NCBI GenBank assembly: GCA_016766635.1 | Contig: CP068473.1 | Location: 740,673-804,672, forward strand | DNA from: Candidatus Xiphinematobacter sp. | GTDB lineage: Bacteria > Verrucomicrobiota > Verrucomicrobiia > Chthoniobacterales > Xiphinematobacteraceae | Direction of reading: 5' to 3' | DNA length: 64,000 nucleotides | Shown: piece by piece, positions 4,228 to 12,401 of the stretch | Position numbering within the stretch: the first letter of the stretch is position 1 | How the letters are laid out: the number at the start of each line of letters is the position of its first letter | Translations under genes and position numbers: made by a program | The notes under the pieces: generated by a model | Told to the model about the DNA's origin: nothing | The model's input: only the letters and a program-made list of their open reading frames with translations | The model's database searches: none

Positions 4228-5205
4228 ATGCGGAAGAATCCACTATTTTTTCCAGTCTTCCTCCTTTTTATGTGCCTCGTATCTGGTAGAGCGCTGCCAT
4301 CGTACGCTGTGGGGGCTAGAAAGGAGGCAGTTCATCCAAAACCGTCTGCTAAGTTGCTTGAGAGGAAAGCTGCGTCCCACTCTCTTCTTGAGCAAGCGGA
4401 GAAGGATGAAAAATCGGGAAAACCGCGCCAGGCTATCCGAAAATACCGCCTGCTTGCAAGGCGGTCCTCTCTCCTATCTGAGCAGGAAGTACTGGAAGTC
4501 CACTTTCGTCTCGCCAAACTTCTTCAGGGGACAAACCGGTTGCAGCAAGCCTTCGATGTCTATCAGACCCTCCTGAAACGCTACCCTAGAGCAGGCAAAC
4601 ACTTCAATGACTCGATAGTCGAACAAATCCACATCGCCAACTTCTATTTAGAGAAGCCCGATAGCATCGTCACGCGCATTCTAATGTCGCACAGAGCAAC
4701 TGCCCAAGGAATGTATGAAACAGTTCTTGCTTCCGCTCCCTACGGGGACTACGCCCCCGTCGCACAGTTCAATCTGTGTCTTGCACATGAGCGGCAAGGG
4801 CACGTCCGTGAAGCTGTCCAAGCCTATCAGGCCTTGTCTGAGAAGTACCCCAATAGTAGATTGGCGGGTGATGCGCAATATCAAATTGCTTACGTCCACA
4901 TGCGTGTCGGACTTAGCAATCGTTCACAAGACCTTGCAACCCTATCGCGGGCAAGGAACGCTTTCCAGGACTACCTATTGCAATATCCGAAAACCAAGCA
5001 TAGGGCTCAGATTCTAAAGAATATAGAGAGGATCAGCTCCAAAGAGGCTTCTATGATTTATCGTATTGCTACATTCTACGATCACCTTCGGAGTTACAGG
5101 TCCGCCTACATCTACTATAAGGAGGTGCTCCAGCGTCAAACTGCCTCCAGGGAGGCCCTATTAGCTAGGGCAAGGATCAAGGTGCTACGCAATAAGCTAG
5201 CATGA
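4228..5205 (+). CDS. TPR outer-membrane assembly protein, BamD-like
   Basis: 325-residue exported protein. Residues 1-27 form a signal peptide with a hydrophobic core FLLFMCLVSG and a likely signal peptidase I site after SYA. No cysteine sits in lipobox position, unlike classical BamD lipoproteins. Tetratricopeptide-like helical repeats run from about residue 50 to the end, with repeat signatures such as AIRKYRLLARR, AFDVYQTLLKRYP, AVQAYQALSEKYPNSRLAGD and AFQDYLLQYP, the last two typical of the YfiO/BamD type. It is followed by lptE and rsmI on the same strand, which supports a role in outer-membrane protein or LPS assembly. The precise function remains inference; it could also be a YbgF/CpoB-like periplasmic scaffold. 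Confidence 0.7.
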   Translation: MRKNPLFFPVFLLFMCLVSGRALPSYAVGARKEAVHPKPSAKLLERKAASHSLLEQAEKDEKSGKPRQAIRKYRLLARRSSLLSEQEVLEVHFRLAKLLQGTNRLQQAFDVYQTLLKRYPRAGKHFNDSIVEQIHIANFYLEKPDSIVTRILMSHRATAQGMYETVLASAPYGDYAPVAQFNLCLAHERQGHVREAVQAYQALSEKYPNSRLAGDAQYQIAYVHMRVGLSNRSQDLATLSRARNAFQDYLLQYPKTKHRAQILKNIERISSKEASMIYRIATFYDHLRSYRSAYIYYKEVLQRQTASREALLARARIKVLRNKLA

Positions 5206-5216
5206 ACGCAATAAGC
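5187..5216. repeat. Imperfect tandem duplication across a stop codon
   Basis: The segment ACGCAATAAGC at 5187-5197 is repeated at 5206-5216, offset by 19 bases, so the end of the BamD-like gene including its TGA appears partly copied immediately downstream. A short AATAAG echo follows. It resembles other short duplications in this window and looks like replication slippage. Confidence 0.6.
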
Positions 5217-5430
5217 AATAAGTTTGCATTAATGCCTCCACATATGTGAAGGGAGTAGAGTGAGGAGCAGTTTCTGGGAATCCGCAGTCCAAACATAGGT
5301 TTTGGTCTCCCGGTTTATTGCTTGCGTCCTAACCCTATGGCAAATCGGTGATGCTCGGATCAGTGTGATGTACGCTTATGAGCATGGGACTCAGCCGCTT
5401 CCCCTCCAGGGGGAAGGTATTGCTGCTGTT

Positions 5431-5946
5431 TTGTCTAGAAAACGCATTTTCCCCATCCTGCTTTCCCTACCGGTTGCGATGTCTGTGGGCTGCTACCGGC
5501 TTGGGAAGATTTATCCTAGCTCAATGCGCGGCATCCAAACATTGGCAATTCCTGTGTTCCAAAATGTAACTTTAGTTCCACGGGTAGAAGCTCTTCTGGC
5601 AGATGTCGCTACGCGCGTGTTTCAGGCAGATGGCACCTACGAGATCTTGGATAAAGGCAAAGCGGACGCCGTTCTTGAGTGTAAGCTTATCGACATTTCC
5701 CGTGTGGCAGTTCTCATTTCTCCTACTGACTGGGGGGTCACCAAAAAATTTCAACTGCGGATCTTGGTAACCTATCGTGTCCTCGACAGAATTACCGGAA
5801 AAATTCTTCAACAAGGCACTGCGGCCGGCGCTGCCAGCTATTTCGTAGGTGCAGATCCCATTTCTCAAGAAGAACGTCAGACGCTACCAGTAGCTGCGCG
5901 CTTTATGGCTGACGCCCTCCTTAGCCAATTAACAGAGGGATGGTAA
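5431..5946 (+). CDS. lptE: LPS-assembly lipoprotein LptE family
   Basis: LptE plugs the LptD outer-membrane barrel and helps insert LPS. The recognisable body starts at GCYRLG and contains the family pattern RGIQTLAIPVFQN, then VEALLADVATRVFQADGTYEI and the later AKFMADALLS-like ending (here ARFMADALLSQL). The frame is open from 5302, but the first 43 residues look non-coding. A TTG at 5431, with GGGGGAAGG about 14 bases upstream, gives a compact lipoprotein signal: basic SRKR, a hydrophobic core, then Cys21 after MSVG. I therefore prefer 5431 (171 residues); ATG 5368 is the alternative. It lies between the BamD-like gene and rsmI, and rsmI starts 10 bases after its stop. Confidence 0.75.
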   Translation: MSRKRIFPILLSLPVAMSVGCYRLGKIYPSSMRGIQTLAIPVFQNVTLVPRVEALLADVATRVFQADGTYEILDKGKADAVLECKLIDISRVAVLISPTDWGVTKKFQLRILVTYRVLDRITGKILQQGTAAGAASYFVGADPISQEERQTLPVAARFMADALLSQLTEGW

Positions 5947-5955
5947 CTTCACAAG

Positions 5956-6636
5956 GTGCTTACTATTGTTCCCACACCCATCGGGAATCTTGAAGACATC
6001 ACTCTTCGCTCTATTAGCGCCTTTTTGGAGGCGGACTATATCGCAGCCGAGGATACACGGCGCACCTCTATTCTCCTGCGATACCTAAGAGTTTCCAGGC
6101 CGCTTATCAGTTTTCATAGACACAATGAGGTTGCACGCACCGCGGAGCTTGTAGCGCACATTAAGGGAGGATATAGGGTGGCATTGAGTTGCGACGCAGG
6201 CATACCGGCTATTTCGGATCCTGGCTATCAACTAATAAGCGCCTGCATTCAGGAAGGCCTGCCCTTCACTGTACTTCCTGGCCCTTCGGCAGTACTAACG
6301 GCACTAGTAGGCTCCGGACTACCTTGCCATAAATTTTATTTCGCAGGGTTCCTGCCGGTGAAGTCCGGAAAACGCGCAGCAGAACTCCGTCAGGCCGCTA
6401 CTCGTCCATGGACTTCCGTCTACTTTGAATCTCCGTATCGATTAGTAGGGTCTCTTTCTATTCTCACAGAAATCTGTCCTTCTATCCCCGTGTGCGTTGC
6501 CAGAGAGATTTCCAAAAAGTTTGAAGAGTACCGCCGTGGAACGGCTGGCAAGGTACTAGCCCACTTCACGGTTTATCCACCGAAGGGAGAAATCGTCCTT
6601 CTAATTCACGGGAACTTCTCCTACCCCCTAGAGTAA
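5956..6636 (+). CDS. rsmI: 16S rRNA (cytidine-1402-2'-O)-methyltransferase RsmI
   Basis: SAM-dependent 2'-O-methyltransferase of C1402 in the ribosomal P site, of the tetrapyrrole-methylase fold. The N-terminus IVPTPIGNLEDITLRSI and the motifs AEDTRRTSILLRYL, SFHRHNE, LSCDAGIPAISDPGY and VLPGPSAVLTALVGSGLP are characteristic. A GTG start at 5956 follows AAGG by only one base; no better start is present because the family begins at exactly this motif. At 226 residues it lacks the roughly 50-residue C-terminal extension of the E. coli protein, though short forms are common in other phyla. It forms a tight set with lptE upstream. Confidence 0.92.
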   Translation: MLTIVPTPIGNLEDITLRSISAFLEADYIAAEDTRRTSILLRYLRVSRPLISFHRHNEVARTAELVAHIKGGYRVALSCDAGIPAISDPGYQLISACIQEGLPFTVLPGPSAVLTALVGSGLPCHKFYFAGFLPVKSGKRAAELRQAATRPWTSVYFESPYRLVGSLSILTEICPSIPVCVAREISKKFEEYRRGTAGKVLAHFTVYPPKGEIVLLIHGNFSYPLE

Positions 6637-6792
6637 AAGGGAGCGGCGCCCATCCCGGCGCTAAAATCTTTTATTAAATTAGCTGCACTGCTCATTATAA
6701 TTCCCAGATGGTGCAAAGCAACCACCACTATACTAGCTGCTAACCCCGAGGGTTGGTTTGGAAAATCCCCAAAGACTTCTCTAGTTGAAAGG

Positions 6793-6819
6793 GGAGGTAG
6801 GTCACAAATACATACCTCC
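6793..6819. terminator. Hairpin between convergent rsmI and asd
   Basis: GGAGGTA (6793-6799) can pair with TACCTCC (6813-6819) across a 13-base loop, in the space between two convergent genes. There is no strong T-run on either side, so a terminator role is only suggested by position. Confidence 0.3.
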
Positions 6820-6835
6820 ACCAAGAGGCTCCGAC

Positions 6836-7846
6836 TTAAATGATTAATTCCGCAATTTGAACGGCATTCAAGGCCGCCCCCTTAAGCAACTGGTCTCCAC
6901 AAATCCAATAGGCTAGGCCATTTTCCATGGCAGAATCTAAACGTAACCGCCCTATCTCACACTCTTCCCTGCCCTCTACATTTAGAGGAGTTGGATAACA
7001 GTTACTTGCCATGTCGTCCACCAGTCTTATTCCTGGAGCCTCGCTGAGAGCTTCCATGGCCACCTTTAAGGAAACTGGCTTTTCAAATTCGGCAAAGACA
7101 GCGACCGAGTGCGCCCGGTAGACTGGCACCCGCACGCAGGTAGCAGAAGCGCGAAACTTTGGTAGATGCAGGATCCGACGGCCTTCATTCTGCATCTTCA
7201 CCTCCTCCTGCGTGTATCCAGAGTCAAGAAAGCTTTCAACTTGGGGGAGCACATTGAAGGCAATTTGGTAAGGATAAACTCTCCTCCCTACGCTTTGATG
7301 GCCAGCAAGGAGAGAGCGGACCTGCTGATGGAGTTCCGAAATTCCCTGTGTACCCGAGCCAGAAACCGCCTGATAGCTGGCAGCAAAAACACGCTTTACG
7401 TCAAAGGCCTTATGCAGGGGATAAAGCCCCATCAGAGTGATGATAGTTGTGCAATTGGGATTGGCAATGATTCCTTTGTGGTACTGTGCTTCTTCCCCAT
7501 TAATTTCTGGAATTACCAGCGGTACCATGGGATCCATGCGAAACGCCGAGGAATTGTCAATAACCACGGTACCTGCTTCCACCGCAAAATGAGCATAGTT
7601 CTTAGCGATCTCGCTGCCAGCACAGAACCAAGCGAAATCTACCCCCCCAAAGGAGCCTGCATCCAATGCTTGCACTATGACTTCTTCCTTGCGGAATCGG
7701 AGTACCTTGCCAGAAGAGCGTGGGGACGCTAATAAAGTCAGCTGAGAGACGGGAAAATTGCGGCATTGCAGCACTCGAGTCAGTTCCAATCCTACAGCTC
7801 CAGTAGCGCCTACAATTGCTACGTGAAATCTTTTGCTCATCACCAT
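6836..7846 (-). CDS. asd: Aspartate-semialdehyde dehydrogenase
   Basis: Reduces aspartyl phosphate to aspartate semialdehyde with NADPH, the branch point to lysine/diaminopimelate, threonine and methionine. The 336-residue protein has the NADP-binding GATGAVGLEL near the N-terminus, the VIDNSSAFRMD segment, the nucleophilic cysteine in NPNCTTI, and the SYQAVSGSGTQGI and RVPVYRAHSVAVFAEF motifs. ATG at 7846 or the second ATG two codons later both fit. Its upstream region runs directly into the left arm of the 79-bp inverted repeat (36 bases from the start codon), so the promoter may lie in or across that arm. Diaminopimelate supply for peptidoglycan is a likely reason for retention. Confidence 0.95.
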   Translation of the reverse strand: MVMSKRFHVAIVGATGAVGLELTRVLQCRNFPVSQLTLLASPRSSGKVLRFRKEEVIVQALDAGSFGGVDFAWFCAGSEIAKNYAHFAVEAGTVVIDNSSAFRMDPMVPLVIPEINGEEAQYHKGIIANPNCTTIITLMGLYPLHKAFDVKRVFAASYQAVSGSGTQGISELHQQVRSLLAGHQSVGRRVYPYQIAFNVLPQVESFLDSGYTQEEVKMQNEGRRILHLPKFRASATCVRVPVYRAHSVAVFAEFEKPVSLKVAMEALSEAPGIRLVDDMASNCYPTPLNVEGREECEIGRLRLDSAMENGLAYWICGDQLLKGAALNAVQIAELII

Positions 7847-7881
7847 AATCTACCACAAAACAAGCTCATAGAAAGATTCGT

Positions 7882-7960
7882 GAGCACGACCATCAATCTT
7901 AGCTGTCCATGCTCAATCGAATTCACCCCCCTCTGCTCCACTACACTATCGGACGGACTG
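7882..7960. repeat. 79-bp inverted repeat, left arm
   Basis: Bases 7882-7960 are the exact reverse complement of 8441-8519 (79 of 79 by direct comparison). The arm contains an EcoRI-like GAATTC and a C6 run. Identity stops abruptly at both edges, apart from a possible continuation AACAAG/CTTGTT separated by a 17-base difference on the outer side. It lies in the upstream region of asd. Confidence 0.95.
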
Positions 7961-8175
7961 TCTCCAAAAATTCCTGGATCGGACTACTTACTATGAGAAT
8001 AGTTGCGAACTGGTTATGTGGATATACACCGAGAGGTAGGGCCTGGGGTTGTTTCTTTCTCTAGCACGCAGAGAATCTCATCTTCCTAGTTCCAGAGGAA
8101 CAGATTTTCGTTGTAAGCTGCAGAAGATTCGACAGAATGTCCCTCGCAACCAGCAAAGAAAGGAGGGAGTGCTCT

Positions 8176-8298
8176 ATGCCTTTTATAAAAGTCCTCGTCG
8201 CCGTCACTATGGCCGGCGCAATTTTTGGACTCGGGGCCTGTAACCACAAGCCACCGCCAATTCCACCAGCGCCAGCTGCTATTGGCACTGCTAAGTAG
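8176..8298 (+). CDS. Small lipoprotein (40 aa) inside the inverted-repeat module
   Basis: ATG at 8176, TAG at 8296-8298. AAGGAGGG at 8158-8166 is the strongest Shine-Dalgarno sequence I see in this part of the window. The product has a short basic start (MPFIKVLV), a hydrophobic core, and the lipobox LGAC with Cys22. The mature peptide would be about 19 residues, NHK followed by a proline-rich tail (PPPIPPAPAA). The layout resembles entericidin-size small lipoproteins, but there is no sequence match I recognise and I assign no function. It is the only convincing gene between the two repeat arms. Confidence 0.7.
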   Translation: MPFIKVLVAVTMAGAIFGLGACNHKPPPIPPAPAAIGTAK

Positions 8299-8440
8299 TG
8301 CTCATCCGTTGGGCTGTTAAAAAATGACTCAATCCAGCCGGGTATTCTCGGAGTGCCGCACAGTGTTTAGAGAGGGATGGCCGGCCTTCCGTACCCATTT
8401 GTGGCGTTTGGGGAGCCTGTGAACCGGCTGGAACTTGGGT

Positions 8441-8519
8441 CAGTCCGTCCGATAGTGTAGTGGAGCAGAGGGGGGTGAATTCGATTGAGCATGGACAGCT
8501 AAGATTGATGGTCGTGCTC
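8441..8519. repeat. 79-bp inverted repeat, right arm
   Basis: Perfect reverse complement of 7882-7960, with 480 bases between the arms (7961-8440). On this side the same sequence that faces asd on the left reads outward into 8520-8795, where there is no convincing gene. No target-site duplication is visible at the outer edges. Confidence 0.95.
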
Positions 8520-8795
8520 TTGTTTGATTGCCAGGATTTCCTGACTATCCGTTGTTCAGCCAGGTTTTTTTACCTCATGGTAAAACAACGCCAAGACCTG
8601 AAATGATAAACGGAGGCGTGGGAAGGCTGGCCAGCCGGCATGGGGATTTATGTAGGGAGTACGAAATGGCAGAAAAAACCTGGCAGGTGGCTCCCTGGTG
8701 GTTTCTGGTCCCTTCCGCAGGTCAGTAGGGAGTTGCTGCAGACTGCAGACGTATGCCCCCTCCAGCCTAGTTTTTGGACAGAGTCTCTCTTTCCA
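8520..8795. other. Gap between inverted repeat and nif3-like gene
   Basis: The best open frame here (8528-8728, + strand) would end in MAEKTWQVAPWWFLVPSAGQ and lacks a ribosome site and any recognisable family. I do not call a gene. Confidence 0.4.
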
Positions 8796-9551
8796 TTATC
8801 GCCCTGTTGGGTGGTCGATAAATTCCCATGGTAGGCTGAGGTATTCGGAAAGATGTTCGGCCACCGATCGAATCCCAAAAGTCTCTGTGGCATAGTGCCC
8901 CGCGTAGATTAGATTCACTCTAGATTCCTCTGCTGCTATATAAGTCCAGTGCGCTCCCTCGCCCGTAATTAAGGTATCAATTCCATCCGCTGCAGCTTGC
9001 GTAATCATAGAGCCGGCAGAACCGCTGATAATGCCAATATGGCAACACGTCTCTGGACCACCGGGTGCTAGATGCACATCTCCGCACACTGCCCCTGCTA
9101 CGCGGTTCAGTACCTCTGCTCGGCTTAATCTCACCTCAACGCGCAATCCAACATAAGTTCCGAGGACTTGCAAAAAAGGCTGGTAGTGGGTAAATCCACA
9201 GGTCTGTGCTAGCAAGACGTTATTTCCGTGTCTTGGGTGGATGTCCAAAGGAAGGTGAGCGCTGTAAATGGCGAGGTCTCCGGAGATAGCAGAGCGCAAC
9301 CTCCTATAAGGTACCCCTACCCAGCGTTTATTCTCCCCCCAAAACAGCCCGTGATGGACAAGGAGCAGGGTGCATTCCACCCGGATAGCGCGCTCGATTA
9401 CCGCTTCGCAGGCATCCACAGCGGCAGCAATTCTACCTATCTTACCAGAATTCTCTAATTGGAGACCATTGTGAGCACCTGGAGCATCTCCCGATTCGTG
9501 AATGTGCAAGAGGCGATCCAGATAGGGGATTATATCTCTAAGGAAAACCAT
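8796..9551 (-). CDS. Nif3-like dinuclear metal-centre protein (DUF34/YbgI family)
   Basis: 251-residue member of the NIF3/YbgI family, toroidal proteins that bind two metal ions; the biochemical role is not settled. Metal-ligand motifs are visible: LLVHHGLFWG near residue 63 (two His), YSAHLPLD near residue 97, and GEGAHWTYIAAEE with YAGHYATE near residues 197-218. NGLQLE near residue 28 is also typical. Family members are often annotated as GTP cyclohydrolase 1 type 2, which is not supported by sequence alone. It is divergent from ychF, with about 70 bases between the start codons. Confidence 0.85.
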   Translation of the reverse strand: MVFLRDIIPYLDRLLHIHESGDAPGAHNGLQLENSGKIGRIAAAVDACEAVIERAIRVECTLLLVHHGLFWGENKRWVGVPYRRLRSAISGDLAIYSAHLPLDIHPRHGNNVLLAQTCGFTHYQPFLQVLGTYVGLRVEVRLSRAEVLNRVAGAVCGDVHLAPGGPETCCHIGIISGSAGSMITQAAADGIDTLITGEGAHWTYIAAEESRVNLIYAGHYATETFGIRSVAEHLSEYLSLPWEFIDHPTGR

Positions 9552-9619
9552 ACAAGGGTCATAAAATCTTTGGAGAAAAAAGTTTGCATCTGGTCACAAT
9601 CCACTACAGTTCCCCCCTT

Positions 9620-10723
9620 ATGCCTAAGATCGGTATAATCGGGTTGCCAAACGTAGGGAAGTCGACCCTCTTCAATGCGCTTACTCGCTCTTACAGAGCA
9701 CAAGCCACAAACTTCCCATTCTGTACTATCAAACCAAATGTCGGAATCGTCAATGTTCCGGATTCCCGACTGGATACTCTCTCGGAACTGACAAAATCCA
9801 AAAGAGTAGTACCAGCAACTATCGAATTCGTAGACATTGCAGGACTTGTCAGGGGGGCTAGTGAAGGAGAAGGGCTTGGTAACCAATTTCTCGGCCATAT
9901 TCGACAGGTGGACGCCATTGTGCAAGTAGTACGCTGCTTTGAAAACACAGAGATTCACCATGTAGCAGGTACTGTAGACCCCATCCGGGATATAGCGACC
10001 ATTAGCGCTGAGCTAATTCTTGCGGACCTTGCTTTCTTACAGAAGCGTAAGGACAAATTGTCAGCGCGCACCAAAGGACAGGAAATGGAACTCTACCTCC
10101 TGGAGCAATTGATCCAACATCTGGACAATGGACACCCGGCTTCCTCTTTGAGGCCCCTAAAAGGGGAAAAGTCTCCTCTTGATTCCTTCTGCCTCCTTAC
10201 TGCAAAACCTACCCTTTTCGCTTGCAATGTCTGTGAGGAGGATTTGGCTAAACAGAATAATCTAGCTAGAGCCTCTTTTCTTCAGAATGTAAAGGCCCAC
10301 GTCACCAGTGGTCTTCGTACTGAAACGGTTGCCGTTAGCGCTCAAATTGAAAGCGAGCTTTCAGCGTTACCACCCGCAGAAGCTGAGGCATTTTTGGCAG
10401 GGCTTGGAGTTGCAGATAGTGGTGTTAAGCAGTTGATTCGCGTTGCCTATGATACTCTACTGGGATTGCGGACATACTTTACTACGGGCCCAAGGGAAAC
10501 ACGCGCTTGGACCATTCGCGATGGGGACCGAGCGCCTACTGCCGCTGGCATTATCCATTCAGACCTACAGCGCGGCTTTATAGCGGCAGAAATTGTTTCT
10601 TATGAAGACTTCATACGGCTGGGGTCGTGGGCAAAAGCTAGAATGACCGGACGCCTTCGCGTAGAAGGAAAGGAGTATATGGTCTGTGACGGGGATGTTA
10701 TAGAATTCCGGTTTAATGTGTAG
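9620..10723 (+). CDS. ychF: Redox-regulated ribosome-binding ATPase YchF
   Basis: OBG-family P-loop protein that binds 70S ribosomes and hydrolyses ATP. G1 is GLPNVGKST at residues about 8-16, G3 is DIAGLVRGAS, and the ATP-type G4 appears as ACNVCEEDL instead of NKxD. The C-terminal TGS-like domain follows (RAWTIRDGDRAPTAAGIIHSDLQRGFIAAE, split as RAWTIRDG and AAGIIHSDLQRGFIAAE). The end matches the family C-terminus VCDGDVIEFRFNV. ATG 9620 (MPKIGIIG) gives 368 residues, the usual length; the longer in-frame start at 9584 adds unrelated sequence. Confidence 0.95.
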   Translation: MPKIGIIGLPNVGKSTLFNALTRSYRAQATNFPFCTIKPNVGIVNVPDSRLDTLSELTKSKRVVPATIEFVDIAGLVRGASEGEGLGNQFLGHIRQVDAIVQVVRCFENTEIHHVAGTVDPIRDIATISAELILADLAFLQKRKDKLSARTKGQEMELYLLEQLIQHLDNGHPASSLRPLKGEKSPLDSFCLLTAKPTLFACNVCEEDLAKQNNLARASFLQNVKAHVTSGLRTETVAVSAQIESELSALPPAEAEAFLAGLGVADSGVKQLIRVAYDTLLGLRTYFTTGPRETRAWTIRDGDRAPTAAGIIHSDLQRGFIAAEIVSYEDFIRLGSWAKARMTGRLRVEGKEYMVCDGDVIEFRFNV

Positions 10724-10892
10724 CTTTTTCTGGTTTTGTATTTTTCACCACTCTACCACGCAAGAATTTTGAAGGAGTAAAACACGTGCGTACCACAACT
10801 ACTCATAGCTGATGAGTAGTCTGGGAGCCATAAGTGGAGCCTGCTGTCTCTTACGTCTGTGTCTTCTCTGTACGAGTTGTCTCTGTAAACCC

Positions 10893-11783
10893 ATGCTAGA
10901 TAGACGACAAAAACTGAGTATAGGACTTATCCAACACCAGTGTACTCTGGATGGAGAGGCCAATACACTTTCCCTGGAAAAGGGAGTCCGCAAGGCGGCC
11001 TCTCAGGGCGCACAGATTATCTCTACTCAGGAACTATTCCGTTCTCAATATTTCTGTCAAGTCGAAGACTACAAGCACTTCGCTTTGGCTGAGACCATCC
11101 CCGGTTCTGGGACGGAGCGTCTTTGCGCAATTGCTCAAGAGCTCGATATTGTTTTGGTCGCCTCCCTTTTCGAGCGGCGTGCTCCGGGACTCTATCATAA
11201 TACCGCTGTGGTCATTGACGCAGACGGAACTTTACTGGGCAAATACCGGAAAATGCATATCCCAGAGGATCCTCTTTTCTACGAAAAGTTTTACTTTACC
11301 CCAGGAGACCTGGGGTTCTTAGTGTGGGACACGCGGTACGCACGCATTGGGGTGGGTCTCTGTTGGGATCAGTGGTACCCAGAGGCCCCCCGACTCCTTG
11401 CCTTACGCGGGGCGCAGATCCTCTTCTTTCCTACGGCAATCGGCTGGCATCCCACCGAAAAATCCCGTCATGGGCAACGCCAATATTCAGCGTGGGAAGT
11501 TGTTCAACGAGGACATGCTATAGCTAATGGTTGCTACCTAGCGGTTGCCAACCGTGTAGGCCACGAAGTCTATAGCGGAAATGGAATTGAGTTTTGGGGA
11601 CAAAGCTTCGTTTGTGACCCTTTTGGGGAAATCCTCCAAAAGGGATCGACTTCTGATGAGGAAATTATTATCGCAGAAATAGACCTGGACCTCATAGACG
11701 TGCAGAGGAAGCACTGGCCCTTCCTGCGCGATCGTAGGATCGATGCCTACGGAGGGATTTTGCGTCGATTTATCGACTCGTGA
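10893..11783 (+). CDS. aguB: Carbon-nitrogen hydrolase, N-carbamoylputrescine amidase-like
   Basis: Nitrilase-superfamily amidase. The catalytic triad is visible: Glu in STQELF, Lys in YRKMHIPEDP, and Cys in GVGLCWDQWYPE. Family members of this subgroup convert N-carbamoylputrescine to putrescine. The motifs FYEKFYFTPGD, AIGWHPTEK and NGIEFWGQSFVCDPFGE closely follow the AguB pattern. The frame is open from 10812, but ATG 10893 (MLDRRQKLSIGLIQ) matches the family N-terminus and gives 296 residues. Polyamine function is likely but other small amides cannot be excluded. No agmatine deiminase gene is present in this window. Confidence 0.85.
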   Translation: MLDRRQKLSIGLIQHQCTLDGEANTLSLEKGVRKAASQGAQIISTQELFRSQYFCQVEDYKHFALAETIPGSGTERLCAIAQELDIVLVASLFERRAPGLYHNTAVVIDADGTLLGKYRKMHIPEDPLFYEKFYFTPGDLGFLVWDTRYARIGVGLCWDQWYPEAPRLLALRGAQILFFPTAIGWHPTEKSRHGQRQYSAWEVVQRGHAIANGCYLAVANRVGHEVYSGNGIEFWGQSFVCDPFGEILQKGSTSDEEIIIAEIDLDLIDVQRKHWPFLRDRRIDAYGGILRRFIDS

Positions 11784-11906
11784 CACTCCCCACTTCAGGA
11801 AATTTACGAGGACCAATTTCCTTGCCCATAGACCTAGTGCTATACCTGTCTTCCTGCTATAGGCCTTTTTGTCTTTGGAGGGGATTCTTACCTGCCCTAG
11901 GCAGAA

Positions 11907-12401
11907 CTAGGCGTCAAGCAACCGACGGTAGAGTATGCCAAGCGCGGCATCAACTGCCAACTGTTTAAAAGTTTCTCGGCTTTCTGGGAACAGTCCCCTG
12001 TAAACCTGGGTAGGTACTTGAGGAGAGGCTAGCCCAATAAAGACAGTGCCAATTGACAGCTGTTGTGTCCCCCTAGTGGGTCCAGCTACGCCAGTCGTGC
12101 ACAGAGCATAGTGCGCGCCGCTAAGATTTAACAGGCGTTCCGCCATTTCTGTAGCTACCTCCTTACTTACTGCGCCACACGACCGGATAGTTGACTCAGG
12201 TAGATGCAACCTGTCTGATTTGGCTTTATCAGAATAGAGGATAAAGCCCTCCAGGAAAACTCTAGAACAACCTTCGACATTGGTTATACGGTTTGCCAGA
12301 AGGCCACCAGTACAGGACTCCGCTGTGGCCAGAGTCCTTTTCGCTCTACGGAGACACTCCACCACCATCCTTTCTAATAGGGGTCCCCTCCTCATCGTCA
12401 T
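11907..12401 (-). CDS. pncC: CinA C-terminal-type nicotinamide-nucleotide amidase PncC
   Basis: 164-residue stand-alone CinA C-domain. Visible motifs are ATAESCTGGLLANRIT (catalytic serine region), YSDKAK, GAVSKEVATEMAERL, TTGVAGPTRGTQQLSIGTVFIGLA near residues 107-127, and the family ending. PncC deamidates nicotinamide mononucleotide to nicotinate mononucleotide in NAD salvage. The ATG at 12401 or the second ATG two codons later both work. A short perfect hairpin, CTGCC-CTA-GGCAG, lies just past its stop near 11892-11904 without a T-run. It stands between the aguB-like gene (convergent) and an apparently empty 324-base spacer. Confidence 0.88.
   Translation of the reverse strand: MTMRRGPLLERMVVECLRRAKRTLATAESCTGGLLANRITNVEGCSRVFLEGFILYSDKAKSDRLHLPESTIRSCGAVSKEVATEMAERLLNLSGAHYALCTTGVAGPTRGTQQLSIGTVFIGLASPQVPTQVYRGLFPESRETFKQLAVDAALGILYRRLLDA

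Follow-up and report, generated by a model that had tools for sequence, protein, structure and literature searches.

A perfect 79-bp inverted repeat around a conserved lipoprotein gene next to asd in Candidatus Xiphinematobacter: most likely a static local inverted duplication

Inverted repeats flanking a segment of a few hundred bases are characteristic of invertible segments of the fim, Hin and Piv type, and MITE-like elements likewise carry long terminal inverted repeats around a short segment. Template-switch mutations of the quasipalindrome type also give rise to such structures: a stretch from the vicinity is copied in reverse-complement form, the arms are perfect, the breakpoints lie at the side of a hairpin and the coding DNA is left untouched. 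The locus described here shares features with each of them. However, unlike fim/Hin/Piv-type segments, its arms are long where such segments have short core sites, the genome yielded no cognate recombinase, and a promoter-like leader and a hairpin of its own belong to the inner unit. In contrast to MITE-like elements, the locus occurs as a single copy, shows no target-site duplication and encloses a gene that is ancestral at the site. The best-studied bacterial template-switch events are in general shorter and closer to their source than the copy of 79 bp at a distance of 480 bp found here, for which the mechanism is deduced from one comparison. Template switching is a described source of reverse-complement repeats that has been thoroughly studied in microbes (PMC8794818), and reverse-complement copies made in this way are also treated as a mutation class in PMC7202029 and PMC8604942.

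The analyses were performed on a window of 64 kb, i.e., the whole stretch of DNA under study, which belongs to a one-contig genome of 917,278 bp. Both this organism and the nearest relative that was compared are Xiphinematobacter, intracellular symbionts of dagger nematodes. The genome of the relative (915,884 bases), referred to below as the sister genome, is taken as that of Xiphinematobacter sp. Idaho Grape (PMC4607532). The features of the locus, in window coordinates, are as follows:

6836 to 7846, reverse strand: asd (aspartate-semialdehyde dehydrogenase), the left neighbour
7882 to 7960, forward strand: left arm of the perfect inverted repeat, located upstream of asd
8103 to 8175, forward strand: conserved leader of the lipoprotein gene, with the promoter-like TTGTAA-17-AGAATG at 8111 to 8139, then the ribosome site AAAGGAGGG
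8176 to 8298, forward strand: gene for a 40-aa lipoprotein, a conserved divergent neighbour of asd, according to its reading frame and the loci of relatives
8325 to 8442, forward strand: long hairpin on the 3' side of the lipoprotein gene, with the stem TGACTCAATCCAGCCGG / CCGGCTGGAACTTGGGTCA, in a terminator-like position
8441 to 8519, reverse strand: right arm, the exact reverse complement of the left arm, beginning in the base of the 3' hairpin
8796 to 9551, reverse strand: DUF34/NIF3 gene, the right neighbour, convergent with the lipoprotein gene

The lipoprotein gene is the only convincing gene between the arms, as the preliminary description had stated. Its product, MPFIKVLVAVTMAGAIFGLGACNHKPPPIPPAPAAIGTAK, carries the lipobox LGAC, the gene is preceded by the ribosome site AAAGGAGGG, and the search of Pfam returned no family for it. 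In the sister genome, as in those members of the genus that have larger genomes, the gene adjoins asd, divergently and in the same orientation. A divergent lipoprotein gene next to asd is also present in further genera (G006, G007, G011, G016, G019, G021, G023 and G026), so that the arrangement extends across the order to at least eight further genomes. Lipoprotein reading frames are displayed for G001, G011, G019, G021, G026 and the sister (G003), and candidate small lipoproteins are found at the locus in G015, G020 and G024. Since the lipoprotein is found beside asd in the same orientation across genera, it does not represent cargo, and its orientation in the assembly is ancestral; judging from these sequences, the gene is vertically inherited in its ancestral place. 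In G021 the small lipoprotein gene upstream of asd is present as two tandem copies (L008).

The leader of the gene is 89% identical to that of the sister and 78–79% identical to those of two other members of the genus, which exceeds the identity of the surrounding coding DNA. Other genera likewise have the box TTTTC(G/A)TTGT ahead of the lipoprotein gene, with an AT-rich hexamer 17–18 bases further on, and we regard it as a predicted promoter. The distance between this box and the start codon is equal in other genera of the order. A scan with consensus promoter models yielded zero promoters and no meaningful terminator. The hairpin at 8325–8442 is 118 nt long, very stable, without a T-run and kept in the sister; its folding energy is about −55 kcal/mol in the window and −53 kcal/mol in the sister, and several paired changes distinguish the two versions. 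In many free-living relatives a plain terminator-like hairpin follows the lipoprotein gene, and the 118-nt structure may be a long, altered form of this terminator or a small RNA. The Rfam search of positions 5000–12000 showed no family near the locus. The leader, the gene and the hairpin all sit between the arms.

The two arms were confirmed to be exact reverse complements in the assembly over all 79 bases, with a spacer of 480 bases. This pair is the only inverted repeat of at least 35 nt and the only exact inverted repeat of at least 18 nt in the window, and the rest of the genome contains zero further copies of the arm. The background of the genome was assessed on 19 sampled stretches (380 kb) together with the window (444 kb in total), with repeats sought within 20-kb stretches, and no exact inverted repeat of 22 bp or longer was detected beyond the arm pair. 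Likewise, no exact inverted repeat of this length was present inside any of 20 stretches of 20 kb (400 kb) of the sister genome. The arm repeat is an outlier and not one of a family, and an exact match over 79 bp is far too long to have arisen by chance. Short tandem direct repeats, exact over 40–62 bp and with spacings of 21–60, were seen in one sampled stretch near the start of the deposited contig (L074, 524–650).

Searches in other sequences also marked the arms as unique to this locus. Long matches to the arm were confined to its own genome, with none among 27 relatives, and a short search of the own genome for the DNA at 8500–8800 returned the arm only. Plasmid collections contained nothing resembling the locus or the arm, viral contigs gave zero matches to a 30-base piece of the arm, and a scan of genome contigs for the locus returned only remote asd genes. 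No target-site duplication of 2–15 bp was found around the arms, in agreement with the initial observation.

The shape of the locus, taken alone, would suit a small mobile element of the non-autonomous kind, in which the 79-bp arms serve as terminal inverted repeats and the lipoprotein gene is a passenger; this was one of the options put forward in the preliminary description. This reading was rejected as extremely improbable: the gene and its orientation are ancestral, the interior is collinear with the sister, the arms occur at one locus of the genome, the plasmid and viral searches gave no match, and there is no target-site duplication. Moreover, the DDE_Tnp_1 transposase was not detected in either Xiphinematobacter genome, and neither was one of the IS110 type.

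The sister genome is collinear at the locus and holds the lipoprotein gene in the same orientation, but it is without either arm. On the left side, the homology extends to base 7881 and is regained near 7961; the segment between them measures 77 bp in the sister and 79 bp in the window. The alignment of the left arm with this segment scored −8, as compared with −0.5 to 11 for neighbouring intergenic pieces of equal length and a mean of −15 (sd 4) for shuffled sequences. The score of the left arm is thus near that of shuffled sequence and far below that of the neighbouring DNA, in keeping with the replacement of a segment in a single step. On the right side, positions 8441–8789, including the flank at 8520–8789, gave no alignment to the sister, and in the downstream gap the window exceeds the sister by about 139 bp; an insertion on this side would be another possible explanation of the longer gap. 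Neither the arm nor the 77-bp segment of the sister aligned to G001 or G002. From the comparison with the sister, we lean towards the left arm as the derived copy.

The explanation that we favour, with a probability of roughly 70%, is a static local inverted duplication in non-coding DNA, at the level of the lineage, for which a template switch during replication at the hairpin is the probable source. Once this lineage and that of Idaho Grape had separated, a stretch of 79 bp would have been copied in reverse across the lipoprotein transcription unit. The replication fork would stall at the long hairpin that ends this unit (8325–8442), and the new strand would switch to the complementary strand, copy 79 bases and switch back. 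Strong hairpins are typical places for the stalling of replication and for a change of template by the new strand. The right arm starts in the base of such a hairpin, conserved in the sister, at the presumed switch point, and the last two bases of the stem are the first two of the arm. The arms themselves constitute a reverse-complement copy of a nearby segment that is absent from the relative, which is the pattern expected of a template-switch duplication. The lipoprotein gene would simply be ancestral, having retained its own leader and hairpin, and would not need the repeat, which probably lacks a function. The perfect identity of the arms would reflect recency, possibly with the help of conversion between them.

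As one close relative was compared, the age of the repeat and the direction of copying rest on a single comparison. In addition, no second repeat of this kind was seen in 444 kb, so that the genome shows no visible tendency towards such events. The preliminary description had also proposed an inverted duplication of the asd upstream region; a plain inverted duplication fits, and a source on the asd side is somewhat less favoured by the sister comparison, which leans towards the left arm as derived.

To assess the possibility of an invertible switch, which had been raised as well, both genomes were searched for recombinases. No match to PF00589 (tyrosine), PF00239 (serine) or PF01548 (IS110/Piv-type) was obtained in the own genome or in the sister, while the control genomes gave matches in 14 of 14, 10 of 14 and 4 of 14 cases, respectively. 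Without a PF00589 match, both genomes apparently have no XerC/XerD for chromosome dimer resolution, the presence of recA notwithstanding; recA is found in both and looks intact. A switch driven by a site-specific recombinase is not supported by these results. A flip would also carry the putative promoter in the leader, the gene and the hairpin together, which makes a switch of the promoter type appear unlikely.

As recA is present, a rare RecA-mediated flip could occur, in which the leader, gene and hairpin would move as one block. The inner 480 bp could be inverted by RecA or by RecA-independent template switching, with both orientations present in the population at low frequency. A perfect identity of 79 bp is generally sufficient for some homologous recombination. 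According to PMC8604942, a template switch between inverted repeats can also leave the spacer inverted and the arms homogenised. However, no site-specific recombinase was found, the assembled orientation is the ancestral one, the 79 bases proximal to asd would remain unchanged, and a unit that moves as a whole would have no obvious on/off effect. We consider such a low-frequency flip unlikely. A stronger version, in which ongoing exchange keeps the arms identical and RecA alone flips the lipoprotein unit between a divergent and a co-directional position relative to asd, altering read-through into asd, appears very improbable.

The way in which the genome was obtained also had to be taken into account. 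According to PMC7857533, enzymatic fragmentation was used for the Illumina libraries behind the deposited sequence, CP068473 (Candidatus Xiphinematobacter luci isolate P23); metaSPAdes was run with k up to 115, and several assemblies were laced into the final sequence. The reads belong to BioProject PRJNA687334, and further isolates of the species are deposited in GenBank as CP068474, CP068475, CP068476 and CP068477. A reverse copy could in principle originate from chimeric library fragments or from the lacing of contigs, and a likely flaw of another kind is seen elsewhere in the same genome: at about 328,336–328,565 of the contig (L081, 13336–13565), a coaBC-like reading frame is interrupted by an exact tandem duplication of 115 bp. 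As its size equals the largest k-mer of the published assembly, this duplication probably stems from a faulty join in the assembly. Such a signature is absent from the inverted repeat. Its length of 79 bp is not among the k values, and each arm would fit within k = 115 as well as within a single 150-bp read. The two copies are separated by 480 bp instead of adjoining each other, and the sequence beyond either arm is unique and leads to the expected next gene. For these reasons, an artefact of the library or assembly was judged to be rather unlikely.

The locus is, therefore, most likely a real but ordinary feature, namely a local inverted duplication that is static. A perfect inverted repeat around a gene closely resembles a switch, and the present case calls for caution in reading such structures, as in this instance the repeat encloses an ancestral gene with an ancestral leader and orientation, and no invertase was found. 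If the junctions hold in the reads and in sister isolates, the locus would represent a clean inverted copy in a reduced genome that has RecA and apparently does without recombinases of the XerC/XerD type. The conserved pair of asd and the lipoprotein gene, together with its leader, may outlast the repeat in interest.
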